Below, in pieces: positions 11,655 to 16,769 of a DNA stretch of 64,000 bases. The notes beneath the pieces were generated by a model. It saw nothing but the letters and a program-made list of their open reading frames with translations. It had not been told where the DNA came from and did not search any database. The translations under genes were made by a program, and so were the position numbers. The DNA lies in the NCBI RefSeq assembly GCF_018069705.1, contig NZ_CP072943.1:1799453-1863452 (forward strand), given 5' to 3'. The stretch is from Aminithiophilus ramosus (lineage in GTDB: Bacteria; Synergistota; Synergistia; Synergistales; Aminithiophilaceae). Numbering within the stretch: the first letter of the stretch is position 1; each line of letters opens with the position of its first letter.

Positions 11655-12308
11655 TCAGCAGGGCATCGACTGGGCCATGCCGGTGCGCCAGGCCAGGACG
11701 GCGATCTGAGTCCGATCCTTCAGCTCCAGTTTGCGGAGGATGTGGCTGACGTGGTTCTTGACGGTCTTCTCGGAGAGCACCATGCGACCGGCGATCTCGC
11801 CGTTGCTCATCCCCTGGGAGATCCAGTAGAGGACCTCCTTCTCCTTGGGCGTCAGCTCCTCGAGAAGATCCCGCTCCTCCCGGCTGCAGTTGAGGCCCAC
11901 GAGGAGCTTGTTCTCCACCTGCGGATCGACGTAGGGCTCGCCGCGGGCCACGGAGCGGAGGGCTGCAAAAAGCTCGGTCATGCCCGAGGATCGGAGGACA
12001 TAGCCCCTCACCCCGGCCGAGGAGAGGGCCGCCAGACGTTCGTCGCCGTCGGAGGCGGCAAGGGCGACGTACTCCAGAGCCCGCGTCGCGTAGGTCAGTT
12101 CGCGCACGACCTGGACGCTTCCGAGCTTGGGGATGTCGACGTCGAACAGAAGGACATCGGGCGCCTTTTCCCGGACGACGCGGAGCGCTTCGAGCCCGTC
12201 TCCCGCCTCGCCCAGAACGACCATATCCGTTTCCATTTCCAGCAGCCTTCTCAGGCCGTCTCGAAAGAGACGGCATTCGCCGGCCACGACGACGCGAATC
12301 TTCTTCAC
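11655..12308 (-). CDS. LuxR/NarL-family response regulator with atypical receiver
   Basis: The 217-aa protein joins a receiver domain (about 1-120) to a LuxR HTH (about 150-210). The HTH includes LTPKEKEVLYWISQG, the NarL-type SNGEIA and VSEKTVKNHVSHI-like helices. The phosphoacceptor position is kept as D56 in VLLFDVD. The usual acidic pair after strand 1 (VDD) is replaced by AGE, and the switch Lys of the GY-LK motif is Arg (GYVLRS), so phosphorylation may be weak or absent. GTG 12308 is chosen because it gives the normal KKIRVVVAG receiver start. No sensor kinase is adjacent; fliD is the convergent neighbour. Confidence 0.88.
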   Translation of the reverse strand: MKKIRVVVAGECRLFRDGLRRLLEMETDMVVLGEAGDGLEALRVVREKAPDVLLFDVDIPKLGSVQVVRELTYATRALEYVALAASDGDERLAALSSAGVRGYVLRSSGMTELFAALRSVARGEPYVDPQVENKLLVGLNCSREERDLLEELTPKEKEVLYWISQGMSNGEIAGRMVLSEKTVKNHVSHILRKLELKDRTQIAVLAWRTGMAQSMPC

Positions 12309-12523
12309 GGGGCACCCCCAGACGACGCGTCGCCGATCGAGCGGGGATAGGATCTCCTTCCTCACCTGTCGACGGCGCGACTGTGCTATAGTTTTGAAGA
12401 GTTTCCGACAGGATCGGCGCCGCGACTTCCCCGACTCCGCACCGAGACTCCGGATCCGATTATAGCCCATATCCCTCCGTCGGAGCACAGGCTCCGGCAG
12501 GACCGAGGAGAGAAGGAGTCGCC

Positions 12524-13276
12524 ATGAGCCTCTCACCCTGCGATTTCTCCGACGCTCTCAGCCGCCCCATCCGCCGTCACCTGGGCCGGGCCGTGGCCCG
12601 GTGGCGCATGATCAGGCCCGGAGAGAGCCTTTTCGTCGGCCTTTCCGGGGGCAAGGACAGCCTCGTCCTCCTGGTGGCCCTGAGGGCGCTGCAAAGGCGA
12701 TCGCCCGTTCCCTTCTCCCTTGTCGCCGGGACTCTGGACCCCACGGGAGGCCGTCTCGACGTGAGCCCCCTGGGCGAGCTCTGCGAGAAGCTCTCCATTC
12801 CCTACAGGACGAAGTCCTTCCCCCTTTTCGACGTCATCCGAGCCCGGGGGGAGACATCGCCCTGCAGTTTCTGCGCCAACTACCGTCGAGGCCTGCTCAA
12901 CGGCATGGCCCGCGAGGCCGGCTGTTCCGTCCTGGCCCTGGCCCACCATCTCGACGACGCCGTGGAGACGGCTCTGCTCAACCTCTGTTTTTCCGGACGG
13001 TTTCGCTCCTTCAAGCCGACGGGCTTTCAGGATCGCTCCGGCATCCGCCTCATCCGCCCCCTCGTGACCGTCGCCGAGGAACGGCTGGCCCAGGAGGCCC
13101 GACGCCTCTCCCTTCCCCTCGTCGAATCGCCCTGCCCCTTCGCGGGACAGAGCGAGAGGGAGACCATGAAGGGATTCATCCGAGATTTCCGTCGACGCAA
13201 TCCGGGCGTCCGGGAGAACATTCTCAACGCCCTCGAGAGCCTTGACTCTCAAGACCGCTGGGAGGTGCCCCTGTGA
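12524..13276 (+). CDS. TtcA-family PP-loop ATPase (tRNA 2-thiolation type)
   Basis: This 250-aa protein has the PP-loop SGGKDS at residues 41-46. It also has the three TtcA cysteines expected to hold a [4Fe-4S] cluster: C114 and C117 (PCSFC) and C204 (ESPCPF). The motif AHHLDDAVETALLNL is typical of the family. TtcA makes 2-thiocytidine at tRNA position 32. The start is ATG 12524 behind GGAGAGAAGGAG. Its stop overlaps the GTG of the next gene (GTGA), so it is translationally coupled to two ATP-grasp-like proteins. That is not the usual context of ttcA and may mean a different thiolation or adenylation target. Confidence 0.88.
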   Translation: MSLSPCDFSDALSRPIRRHLGRAVARWRMIRPGESLFVGLSGGKDSLVLLVALRALQRRSPVPFSLVAGTLDPTGGRLDVSPLGELCEKLSIPYRTKSFPLFDVIRARGETSPCSFCANYRRGLLNGMAREAGCSVLALAHHLDDAVETALLNLCFSGRFRSFKPTGFQDRSGIRLIRPLVTVAEERLAQEARRLSLPLVESPCPFAGQSERETMKGFIRDFRRRNPGVRENILNALESLDSQDRWEVPL

Positions 13277-14982
13277 ACGACCCCTCGCTCTATCAGTCCT
13301 TCGACCCCAAGGAATACTATCGGCATCGCGATTGGCTCATCGGCTCCGGCGACGTGGGAGGCAAGGCCAAGGGACTGGCCTTCGCCTTTTCCGTCCTTCA
13401 CGATCGGGGACTTCTCGATGCCGTCCACCTGCCTCAGGCGACCTATGTCGTCACGACGGAGATTTTCGAGGTCTTCATGGCCGACAACCGCCTCGAAGAG
13501 ATCGTCCGGTCGTCCGGAGACTATTTCGACATCGTCGACGCCTTCGAAAGGGGCCATTTCCGGCCGGCCGTCCGCGAGATCTTCCGGCAGATCCTCACCG
13601 TCATCCGGACTCCCGTGGCCGTCCGCTCCTCTTCCGTCCTGGAAGACGACGTGACCCTCTCCTTCGCCGGCAAATACGCCACTCACTTCTTCGGCAACAC
13701 GGGCACGGACGAATTCCGCCTCCGCCGCCTGGAGCGGGCCGTCAAGCAGGTCTTCGCCTCGGCCTTCAACCCCGCCGCCAAGGAGTATCGGCGCAAGCAC
13801 GGCATCAAACTCGCCGCGGAGCGGATGGCCGTCCTCATCCAGCCCATCGTGGGGCGCATCCGCGACGGCCTCTTCTATCCCGAGCTGGCCGCCGCGGCCT
13901 TCTCCAAGGTCTTCCGCCGCCCCTCGCCACGGGTCCGCAAGGAGCAGGGCGTCATGCGCGTCTGCTTCGGCCTGGGGACACGCACCGTCGACCGGGCCTT
14001 CGCCCGCACCTTTTTCCTCTCCAACCCCCACATCCGCCCCGAGGGAAACCGGCCGGCCGACATCGCCTCCCACGCCCAGGAGGAGTTCGACTACGTCGAC
14101 CTGAACCACGGCTTCTTCCTCTCGGCCCGGATCGAGTACTTCCTCAAGCAGATGACGTCGCAGCACAAGATGGCTCCGGCCTTCGTCGAATGGTACGACG
14201 GAGACATGCTCCACTGGCTCCACAGCGACGCTCCCGGTCAGGGACGTTGCCGTCCCGTCCTTTCCTTCTCCGACTTCCCCCGGAGATGTTCGGGCTTTTT
14301 CCGCCGCGTCAAGGAACTGCTGACGACCTTCGAGGAGGCCATGAGGCTCCCCGTCGACATCGAGCTCACCTACGAGACGGCCCTCGACGAGCTGACCCTC
14401 GTCCAGCTCCGCCCTCTCTCCGTTTTCGAAGAGCTGGGCCGGAGGGAGATCCCCGACGACCTTCCGCCGGAGCGCATCCTCCTCAGGGGCAATCGGATGG
14501 TGTCCAACGGCTCCCTCGAGGGGGCCAAGGCCCTCGTTCTCGTCGATCCCTACCTCTACGGCACCAGCCCCGACTTCTACGAGGTGGCCCGGGCCGTGGG
14601 GGAGCTCAATCAGCAGCTCGAGAACGAGCGCTACATCCTCGTCGGTCCCGGAAGGTGGGGAAGCGCCAATCCGACGCTGGGCGTCCCCGTCCAGTACAGC
14701 GAGCTCTCCAACAGCGGCTGTCTCGTCGAAGTGGGGATCCCCAACGCGGGGATGACGCCCGAGCTCTCCTTCGGCACCCATTTCTTCCTCGACCTCGACG
14801 TGGACAACATCCTCTACCTCCCCGTCTTCTCCGGCGAGGAGGGCAACGTCTTCAACCGCGAGTGGTTCCGCAGCCACCCCTACGAAGAGGGGGCACATCC
14901 CAGCGTCCGCATCTACCGGGGACACTTCGACGTCCTCCTCGACGGCGAGAAAGAAGTGGGCGTCGTCGTGAGCCGAGAGTGA
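13273..14982 (+). CDS. PEP synthase/PPDK-like ATP-binding-domain protein, copy 1
   Basis: The 569-aa protein has the PPDK_N (ATP-grasp-like) nucleotide-binding features: GGKAKGLAFA (about 29-38), VAVRSSSVLED (115-125) and FAGKY (131-135). It has no swivelling phosphohistidine domain and no PEP/pyruvate TIM barrel, so it cannot be a PEP synthase. The C-terminal part carries a different conserved block, with GPGRWGSANPTLGVPV at about 456-471 and FGTHFFLDLDVDN at about 500-512. Proteins with this arrangement occur in several anaerobic phyla and have no assigned reaction that I know of. It overlaps the ttcA-like stop and the start region of copy 2. Confidence 0.8.
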   Translation: MNDPSLYQSFDPKEYYRHRDWLIGSGDVGGKAKGLAFAFSVLHDRGLLDAVHLPQATYVVTTEIFEVFMADNRLEEIVRSSGDYFDIVDAFERGHFRPAVREIFRQILTVIRTPVAVRSSSVLEDDVTLSFAGKYATHFFGNTGTDEFRLRRLERAVKQVFASAFNPAAKEYRRKHGIKLAAERMAVLIQPIVGRIRDGLFYPELAAAAFSKVFRRPSPRVRKEQGVMRVCFGLGTRTVDRAFARTFFLSNPHIRPEGNRPADIASHAQEEFDYVDLNHGFFLSARIEYFLKQMTSQHKMAPAFVEWYDGDMLHWLHSDAPGQGRCRPVLSFSDFPRRCSGFFRRVKELLTTFEEAMRLPVDIELTYETALDELTLVQLRPLSVFEELGRREIPDDLPPERILLRGNRMVSNGSLEGAKALVLVDPYLYGTSPDFYEVARAVGELNQQLENERYILVGPGRWGSANPTLGVPVQYSELSNSGCLVEVGIPNAGMTPELSFGTHFFLDLDVDNILYLPVFSGEEGNVFNREWFRSHPYEEGAHPSVRIYRGHFDVLLDGEKEVGVVVSRE

Positions 14983-15008
14983 TGACGACTTCGGGGGGGG
15001 ACTCGAAC

Positions 15009-16769
15009 ATGATCGACAGAGGACGGACTACCGAGAGCTATTTCGCCTGGAACCCGCGTGACAACCCCCTTCTGGCTCCCCTCATCGTCGGCGGAGGATC
15101 GATCGGCGGCAAGGGACGCTCCCTCCTTTTCGCCCTCGAGAGCCTGAGGCGTCAGGGAGATCCCCTTTTCGACGAGGTGCGACTCCCGCCCGCCCTCTAC
15201 GTCGGAGCCGGCGCCTTCGAGGATTTCCTCTCCGACCTTCCCCACGCCGAGTCCCTGCTGAGGGAAGAGCCCGAAGAGATCGAGAGGTCCTTCCTCGGCA
15301 CCCCCCTTCCGCCCTACGTCACGGCGGGCCTTCGGCGTTTTCTCGCCGGCGTCGACGAGCCCATCGTCCTCCGCTCCAGCAGCCTTCTCGAGGACTCGCT
15401 TCAGCACTCCTTCGCCGGAAAGTACCGGTCGACCTTCCTCTTCAACGCCGGGACTCTCGATGAACGCCTTTCCGCCGCCGAGGACGAAGTGCGACGCATC
15501 TACGCCCGCATCTTCTTCCCCGCCGCGACAAGCTACCGGAAAAAACACGGCCTCGGCTACGACGCCATGGGGCTCATCGCCATGCGCATCTCGGGACGAT
15601 GGCGAGGCCCCTTCTACTATCCCACGCTGGGAGGCGTCGGCTTTTCGCGGAACTTCCGCCGCTGGACGACGCGGATCCGCTCCGAGGACGGCGTCCTGCG
15701 CCTCGTCTTCGGCCTGGGAACGATGAGCACCAAAAGAGGCTACGCCCGGACCTACTCCCTGACCAACCCGTCGCTGCGTCCCGAAGGGCTCGATCCCTAC
15801 AAGGTCATGCGCCACGCCCAGGAGCGGTTTCAGGTCATCGACAGCCGCACCCGGGCTCTGGAGATCTACAACATCCAGGACGTCTGGCGCGACATCCTCC
15901 CCTATCACCCCTGCTTCGGCACCTTCGCCCAGGTCTACCACCAGGACTGCGAGGACGGCTATTTCTCCTCCGTCGATCGTTCCTTCATGCCCGGCAGGGA
16001 GAAGAAACTCTCCTTCACCTTCGACGCCTTCCCCAAACGGCACAAAATCTTCTTCGACAGGATGAAGCTCCTCCTGAAGACCCTGGAGGACTCCATGGGC
16101 GTCCCCGCCGACATCGAGTTCGCCTATGAGCCCTGCGAGGACCGCCTGGAGCTTCTCCAGTCCCGCCCCCTCTGGGACGGCGACGACCGGCAGGGACAGG
16201 GCATACCCGAAGTGGGCGAAAGACGGCTCCTCCTGAAGGCCAGCAGAATGGTCACCAACGGCTCCGTCGAACACGTCCCCTGGATCGTCTACGTCGACCA
16301 CCGGGTCTACTCCGTCTCCAGCGACTTTCACGCCATCGCCCGGGCCATCGGCGAGATGAACGAGACTATGGGGGAAAGCCGCTACATCCTCATCGCCCCC
16401 GGCCGGGTGGGATCGAGCAATCCCGAGCTGGGCGTTCCCGTCCACTACAACGAGCTGACGCGCTGCTGCTGCATCGTCGAATTGGGCATCCCCCGCGAGG
16501 GCTACATGCCCGAACTCTCCTACGGTACCCATTTCTTCTCCGACCTGGAAGTGGACAACGTCCTCTACATGCCCGTCTACGAGGGAGAATCGGGCGACAT
16601 CTTCAACCGCGACTTCTTCGAGAACAGCCCCTTCGAGGCGGGACCTCACGAGGCGATCCGCCTCATCCGAGGTGACTTCTCCGTCTTCATGTGCGGTTTC
16701 AAGAACAAGGGCATCGTCGTCGCCGAGGCCCTGCCGGACGAAAGGGGACGGCAGATCCCTTCCGGATAG
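15009..16769 (+). CDS. PEP synthase/PPDK-like ATP-binding-domain protein, copy 2
   Basis: This 586-aa paralogue of the upstream gene has the same order of motifs: GGSIGGKGRSLLFA near the N-terminus, VLRSSSLLEDSLQHSFAGKY, GPGRVGSSNPELGVPV and YGTHFFSDLEVDN. Trp in the GRWGS block is Val here, and overall identity to copy 1 is clearly low, so the pair is an old duplication, perhaps forming a hetero-oligomer. I choose ATG 15009, which has a run of eight G 9 bases upstream; ATG 14982, overlapping the previous stop (ATGA), is an alternative. Its end is followed by a long palindrome. The phosphohistidine and PEP domains are missing here too. Confidence 0.8.
   Translation: MIDRGRTTESYFAWNPRDNPLLAPLIVGGGSIGGKGRSLLFALESLRRQGDPLFDEVRLPPALYVGAGAFEDFLSDLPHAESLLREEPEEIERSFLGTPLPPYVTAGLRRFLAGVDEPIVLRSSSLLEDSLQHSFAGKYRSTFLFNAGTLDERLSAAEDEVRRIYARIFFPAATSYRKKHGLGYDAMGLIAMRISGRWRGPFYYPTLGGVGFSRNFRRWTTRIRSEDGVLRLVFGLGTMSTKRGYARTYSLTNPSLRPEGLDPYKVMRHAQERFQVIDSRTRALEIYNIQDVWRDILPYHPCFGTFAQVYHQDCEDGYFSSVDRSFMPGREKKLSFTFDAFPKRHKIFFDRMKLLLKTLEDSMGVPADIEFAYEPCEDRLELLQSRPLWDGDDRQGQGIPEVGERRLLLKASRMVTNGSVEHVPWIVYVDHRVYSVSSDFHAIARAIGEMNETMGESRYILIAPGRVGSSNPELGVPVHYNELTRCCCIVELGIPREGYMPELSYGTHFFSDLEVDNVLYMPVYEGESGDIFNRDFFENSPFEAGPHEAIRLIRGDFSVFMCGFKNKGIVVAEALPDERGRQIPSG

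Follow-up and report, generated by a model that had tools for sequence, protein, structure and literature searches.

A widely conserved pair of PPDK_N-type ATP-grasp proteins with a new C-terminal domain in Synergistota

Two adjoining genes of Aminithiophilus ramosus, here called A and B, encode what we consider an uncharacterised variant of the dikinase superfamily, a widely conserved pair of paralogues in which the ATP-grasp domain is followed by a new C-terminal domain. Typical of the superfamily, to which PEP synthase, PPDK, rifampin phosphotransferase and the phenol kinases belong, are small-molecule acceptors and a stereotyped swivelling histidine domain. In the A/B family, which occurs in Synergistota, often as two paralogues, and in Bacteroidota, the ATP half is intact and the carrier domain is replaced or reshaped, which points to an unassigned phosphotransfer activity. 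The predicted activity is accessible with two purified proteins. A literature search found no paper on the family. Our preferred reading, which is a tentative one, is that A and B go back to an ancient duplication and are of an unorthodox dikinase type, that they work together in a phosphoryl relay via a phosphorylated H503, and that the TtcA-like protein encoded upstream (PP) serves a separate pathway.

The window, i.e., the whole stretch of 64,000 nucleotides that was analysed, contains the three genes in tight packing (Table 1), as the initial annotation had read them. In the ORF reading of the window, the stop of PP and the start of A share a GTGA overlap, and A and B overlap by a single nucleotide (TGATG at 14980-14984). 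The true start of B is uncertain. It is either position 14982 or the ATG at 15009, which yields 586 aa and is preceded by a G-rich stretch; the similarity of orthologues to B begins around residue 6-20 of the long form. The inverted repeat behind B is probably a two-way terminator that closes the unit and ends transcription from both sides. A simple scan revealed no sigma-70 consensus and no clear terminator consensus above chance. The locus is not a product of chance, since orthologues with 45-100% identity are found in dozens of genera. Divergently from PP, a response regulator of the NarL/DegU type is encoded at 11655-12536; no histidine kinase was seen beside it here, and in some genera one adjoins it (L035, L056, L066, L074).

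Table 1. Features of the PP-A-B locus, with positions counted in the window
Feature	Position	Strand	Remarks
PP	12524-13276	+	ORF, 250 aa; TtcA-like PP-loop protein
A	13273-14982	+	ORF, 569 aa, GTG start; PPDK_N ATP-grasp domain and novel C-terminal domain
B	14982-16769	+	ORF, up to 595 aa; paralogue of A
A, ATP-grasp (PPDK_N) domain	13351-14448	+	Residues ~28-391; Pfam and conserved residues
A, C-terminal domain (PGRWGS ... ELSFGTHFF)	14425-14979	+	Without known family; H503 codon 14779-14781
B, C-terminal domain (PGRVGS ... ELSYGTHFF)	16179-16766	+	Without known family
Perfect 25-bp inverted repeat, 5-nt loop	16786-16840	.	Between convergent B and sufB-like (sufB/D-core) gene

Pfam assigns both proteins to PPDK_N (110 bits for A, 97 bits for B), and no other family scores above its cut-off; A and B share 42% identity. 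In an alignment of 60 sequences (32 A, a count that takes in the single copies of family f11, 25 B and 3 from Bacteroidota) K31, R118, S119, E364 and R380 are invariant, Q378 is found in 59/60, and position 137 is T or S in 60/60. Rifampin phosphotransferase (RPH) needs Lys22, Arg117 and Thr136 for its first half-reaction (PMC4844700). These residues, as well as Glu297 of the same enzyme (PMC4844700), have counterparts in A and B by position and motif. Because the catalytic residues are conserved, use of ATP can be predicted for both proteins, and the conclusion that they still bind and split ATP appears well supported by the sequence comparison. A profile search of the PDB with A/B retrieved mainly the ATP-grasp domains of PEP synthase, RPH and HpeI. 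Foldseek with a full-length model retrieved RPH, PpsA and PPDK, and only the ATP-grasp relatives were matched.

The initial annotation had described A and B as PPDK_N proteins with a conserved C-terminal block and without the canonical phosphohistidine and PEP/pyruvate domains, and Pfam and motif searches agree with it: the canonical swivelling domain PF00391 is not matched by Pfam in A or B, the phosphohistidine motif T/SxxGGxxxH (PMC12167813) is absent from both, and the PEP/pyruvate TIM barrel has no Pfam match, the two proteins ending after a tail of ~185 aa. With PEP synthase (PpsA) and PPDK they share the catalytic residues of PPDK_N and a weak similarity where the following domain begins, but they have their own GRWGS...GTHFF tail in place of the motif and the barrel. 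With rifampin phosphotransferase (PMC4844700) they have the ATP-grasp residues in common, but neither its rifampin-binding domain nor its His swivel domain is recognisable. The genome also encodes one canonical PPDK, and the role of gluconeogenic enzyme therefore does not have to be filled by A and B.

The tail comprises the last 185 aa of A and the last 196 aa of B. It finds no Pfam match, even at E=5, and no PDB chain by sequence. Its invariant residues include N446, P459-G460-R461, G463-S464, G470, E486, P496, S499, G501, H503 and F504. H503, which is part of the GTHFF motif, is the single histidine that is invariant across all 60 sequences, those of Bacteroidota among them. Compared with PEP synthases, the full-length profile scored 201.5; with the tail columns shuffled the score was 194.7 +/- 1.6, and 0/200 shuffles reached the real score. 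The whole gain in the comparison with the PpsA profile came from residues 390-425 of A: when this segment was shuffled, 0/100 reached the real score, and shuffling of 426-569 caused no change. Judged by these profiles, the initial ~35 tail residues (390-425) appear to resemble the first hairpin of a swivelling domain. In residues 426-569 of A, H503 included, profile shuffling could not detect any swivelling-domain similarity. The C-terminal profile alone gave no signal against phosphohistidine domains, and the hhalign register places a residue other than H503 at the phosphohistidine position. The AlphaFold models were weak (pLDDT 58.2 and 59.5 in two runs with eight sequences each at most), and Foldseek with the weak C-terminal model found no match.

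Most likely, A and B act together, either within one complex or within a single pathway. ATP would be cleaved in the ATP-grasp domain, the phosphoryl group would be placed on H503 of the tail, and H503 would hand it to an acceptor on another protein or on the A/B partner. The role of H503 as phosphoryl carrier is a conjecture, drawn from its being the sole invariant histidine and from the known chemistry of the dikinase family. Against an H503 swivel stand the absent T/SxxGGxxxH motif, the lack of swivel similarity at 426-569 and the hhalign register.

A division of labour between such proteins has precedents. The phenol kinase HpeHI is split between a small ATP-grasp protein and its separate carrier/acceptor partner; HpeI consists of the ATP-grasp domain only, HpeH of a swivel and a substrate domain (PMC12167813). 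By analogy with the two-component dikinases HpeHI, CreHI and phenylphosphate synthase PpsAB (PMC12167813), in which a reduced ATP-grasp protein is combined with a separate acceptor, a similar arrangement is proposed for A and B, and the A/B profile matches HpeI (PDB 9goj). Unlike HpeHI, however, A and B are two paralogues, each with an ATP-grasp domain and a new tail, and there is no HpeH-like gene nearby. Nor does an HpeH-like partner with swivel and acceptor domains recur beside A or B elsewhere, and no gene that could be an acceptor candidate is constant around A or B in the loci compared. Another split dikinase is perhaps encoded on a plasmid of Thermomicrobium roseum (L118:2532-3503), where a stand-alone PPDK_N protein of ~323 aa lies in an operon with cyclase, FAD-binding and fumarylacetoacetase-like genes.

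Instead of relaying a phosphoryl group, A and B could be ATP-grasp ligases or kinases that act directly; the tail would then bind the substrate, no phosphohistidine would be formed, and H503 and the PGRWGS loop would bind substrate or phosphate. We regard this as possible, if rather improbable. Most of the tail is indeed devoid of a swivelling-domain signal, and its cluster of invariant Gly, Arg, Ser and Asn residues resembles a ligand site. The PPDK_N enzymes that we found described, however, use a His swivel domain (PMC12167813, PMC4844700), and the sole positive similarity outside the ATP-grasp domain is to the start of such a domain.

In the phylogenetic tree, A forms a clade with a support of 98/95 and B, without the single copies of family f11, one with 100/100. 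The f11 single copies branch off basally in the B lineage (99/90). The Bacteroidota proteins fall far outside. A and B are ancient paralogues, and the separation of the clades implies that the duplication is older than most of the order. The Bacteroidota homologues (e.g., WP_041525632.1), which go by the name of 'PEP/pyruvate-binding domain-containing protein', show 27-29% identity over 96% of A, the whole tail with GTHFF included; the family is, therefore, not specific to Synergistota. They share tail and ATP-grasp domain with A but differ in fusion, gene number and neighbours: a single gene encodes ~985 aa, with a receiver-like N-terminal half followed by PPDK_N and the same tail. The N-terminal receiver-like domain scores 28 bits with Response_reg, the cut-off being 30; in the second receiver the acidic pair, the Asp and the Lys are visible, by eye only. 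In three such loci (L075:6714-9668 (P0001), L120 and L076) the first receiver-like domain is apparently without the phospho-Asp and the second apparently complete, an uncommon arrangement reminiscent of signalling proteins. The neighbours in Parabacteroides (L075) are gdhA and a rapZ-like gene, not thiolation genes. No receiver fusion was seen in Synergistota.

The architecture of the Bacteroidota homologues, with its near-threshold receiver-like N-terminus, might suggest a signalling or regulatory function for A and B, which would sense ATP/AMP or feed phosphoryl groups to receiver domains. That a response regulator adjoins PP/B, in some genera along with a histidine kinase, would fit. This reading is nonetheless unlikely: the response regulator gene points away from PP/B and borders PP even when B is absent, the fusion is confined to the Bacteroidota proteins among those seen, and the second receiver was assigned by eye only. 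Very unlikely is the bolder version, according to which A/B and their Bacteroidota homologues form a new class of ATP-grasp histidine kinases, the GTHFF histidine being phosphorylated in a new phosphocarrier domain and passing its phosphoryl group to proteins (receivers in Bacteroidota), not to a metabolite.

That A and B belong together is indicated by their distribution. Our survey set comprised 188 Synergistota genomes, 116 of good quality. Genes of the A/B family occur in 105/188 genomes (62/116 good ones), and PP in 175/188 (113/116), dozens of genomes with PP having neither A nor B. The placement counts are slightly low, being taken from the matches listed with some genomes fragmented: A was placed in at least 91 genomes, B in at least 73 and both in at least 69, to which the single copies of family f11 have to be added. 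A-B tandems exist in at least 35 genomes, and tandems with PP elsewhere in at least 25. In at least 24 genomes (families f2, f5, f7, f8) PP immediately precedes B, and A is located elsewhere or is lacking. The contiguous order PP-A-B was found in 6 of the 95 placed genomes with A and/or B, among the matches listed (families f1 and f4, 2 genera). A without B is seen in 22 genomes among the matches listed, some of these genomes being incomplete, which implies that A can act without B.

Gene order points in the same direction; names of genes outside the window were assigned by eye from the translations. In most families the PP block reads response regulator - PP - (B) - sufBC - pgi - glutaredoxin-like. 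Where A-B is located elsewhere or absent, the block is unchanged except for the missing B (families f3, f6, f9, f10 and part of f8). The PP-B adjacency is confined to one conserved syntenic block and, for this reason, may be a single old placement. A lone A is usually found 3' of asnS with a gap of ~30-60 nt, in another conserved block (f2, f5, f7, f10 and part of f8). A-B tandems, by contrast, occur in at least five unrelated contexts: in the PP/suf block (families f1, f4), as apgM-A-B-rluD (families f3, f9), beside ppk-gppA (part of f8), beside a rarD-like gene (f6) and beside a gpmA-like gene (g52). Partners that remain adjacent in several different settings make a stronger case for joint function than partners seen side by side in one slow-changing block. 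The pairing is supported by the genomes with both genes, the tandems, their varied contexts and the separate clades alike. Since the trio is rarely contiguous and PP-B occurs in one block only, the supported unit is A-B, not PP-A-B.

The initial annotation had gone further and joined all three genes in one ATP-dependent pathway connected to RNA thiolation, in which A and B would supply PP with an activated substrate or an activated sulfur carrier. Of course, the genes overlap at this locus, PP directly precedes B in the genomes mentioned and A-B in at least 6 more, and in several families A follows asnS, another tRNA gene. The check for co-occurrence across Synergistota, however, found the trio split in most relatives and PP often without A/B (175 against 105 of the 188 genomes); the PP locus retains its flanks where B is missing, the adjacency of PP and B may reflect that one old placement, and no need for such a partner is described for TtcA enzymes elsewhere (PMC5372745). 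As a general unit we have rejected the three-gene pathway, contiguity being limited to 6 listed genomes and the PP block persisting without B, and as an explanation for this locus it is highly doubtful. What survives of the proposed undescribed system is the A-B pair, which is conserved, looks ATP-competent and has no description that we could find; the thiolation pathway does not. According to the preferred reading, PP would share a unit with A-B here through a conserved neighbourhood that came to host the locus of B and later that of A, not through a common pathway.

PP itself is, by its sequence features, a PP-loop ATPase of the TtcA/NcsA/TtuA group and the probable candidate for the [4Fe-4S] tRNA thiolase of the genome, in which it is the sole TtcA-family match. 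It scores 58 bits with Pfam ATP_bind_3, and its closest solved relative is a [4Fe-4S] U34-tRNA thiolase (PDB 6scy, E=1.8e-20). The TtcA cysteines noted at the outset were confirmed: C114, C117 and C204 are present and, like the SGGKDS loop, invariant in 15/15 orthologues. In TtcA, Cys 122/125/222 have a role in cluster binding (PMC5372745), and the PP-loop with the three-cysteine pattern is common to PP and the TtcA, NcsA and TtuA tRNA thiolases. With the TtcA model NF007972, however, PP reaches 162 bits and, thereby, not the curated cut-off of 272, as is also the case in most matching control genomes. "TtcA-like" is, therefore, correct, and "TtcA" unproven.

The idea that A and B are functionless, decaying PEP synthases can practically be dismissed: the C-terminal half of PEP synthase is missing and the genome already has its canonical PPDK, but conservation contradicts decay, the residues of ATP site and tail being invariant over deep divergence and the reading frames intact in most matches.

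Some further links were considered and abandoned. A link to motility, suggested by a nearby fliD, fails with genus g16, which has FliD but no A/B. An association with polyphosphate kinase, strong with genomes as the unit of counting (odds ratio 12, p=4e-11), is attributed to relatedness, because it disappears when counted by genus (p=0.25, counts read by hand). No viral copies of A/B were confirmed, and PADLOC gave no match to anti-phage defence.

Two minor observations concern neighbouring genes. In three genera of family f8 (L037, L039, L040) the A-B tandem is directly divergent from a polyphosphate kinase and a Ppx/GppA-type gene. At five other loci (L049, L053, L057, L058, L063) the asnS-A operon faces one or two glutamate dehydrogenase genes.
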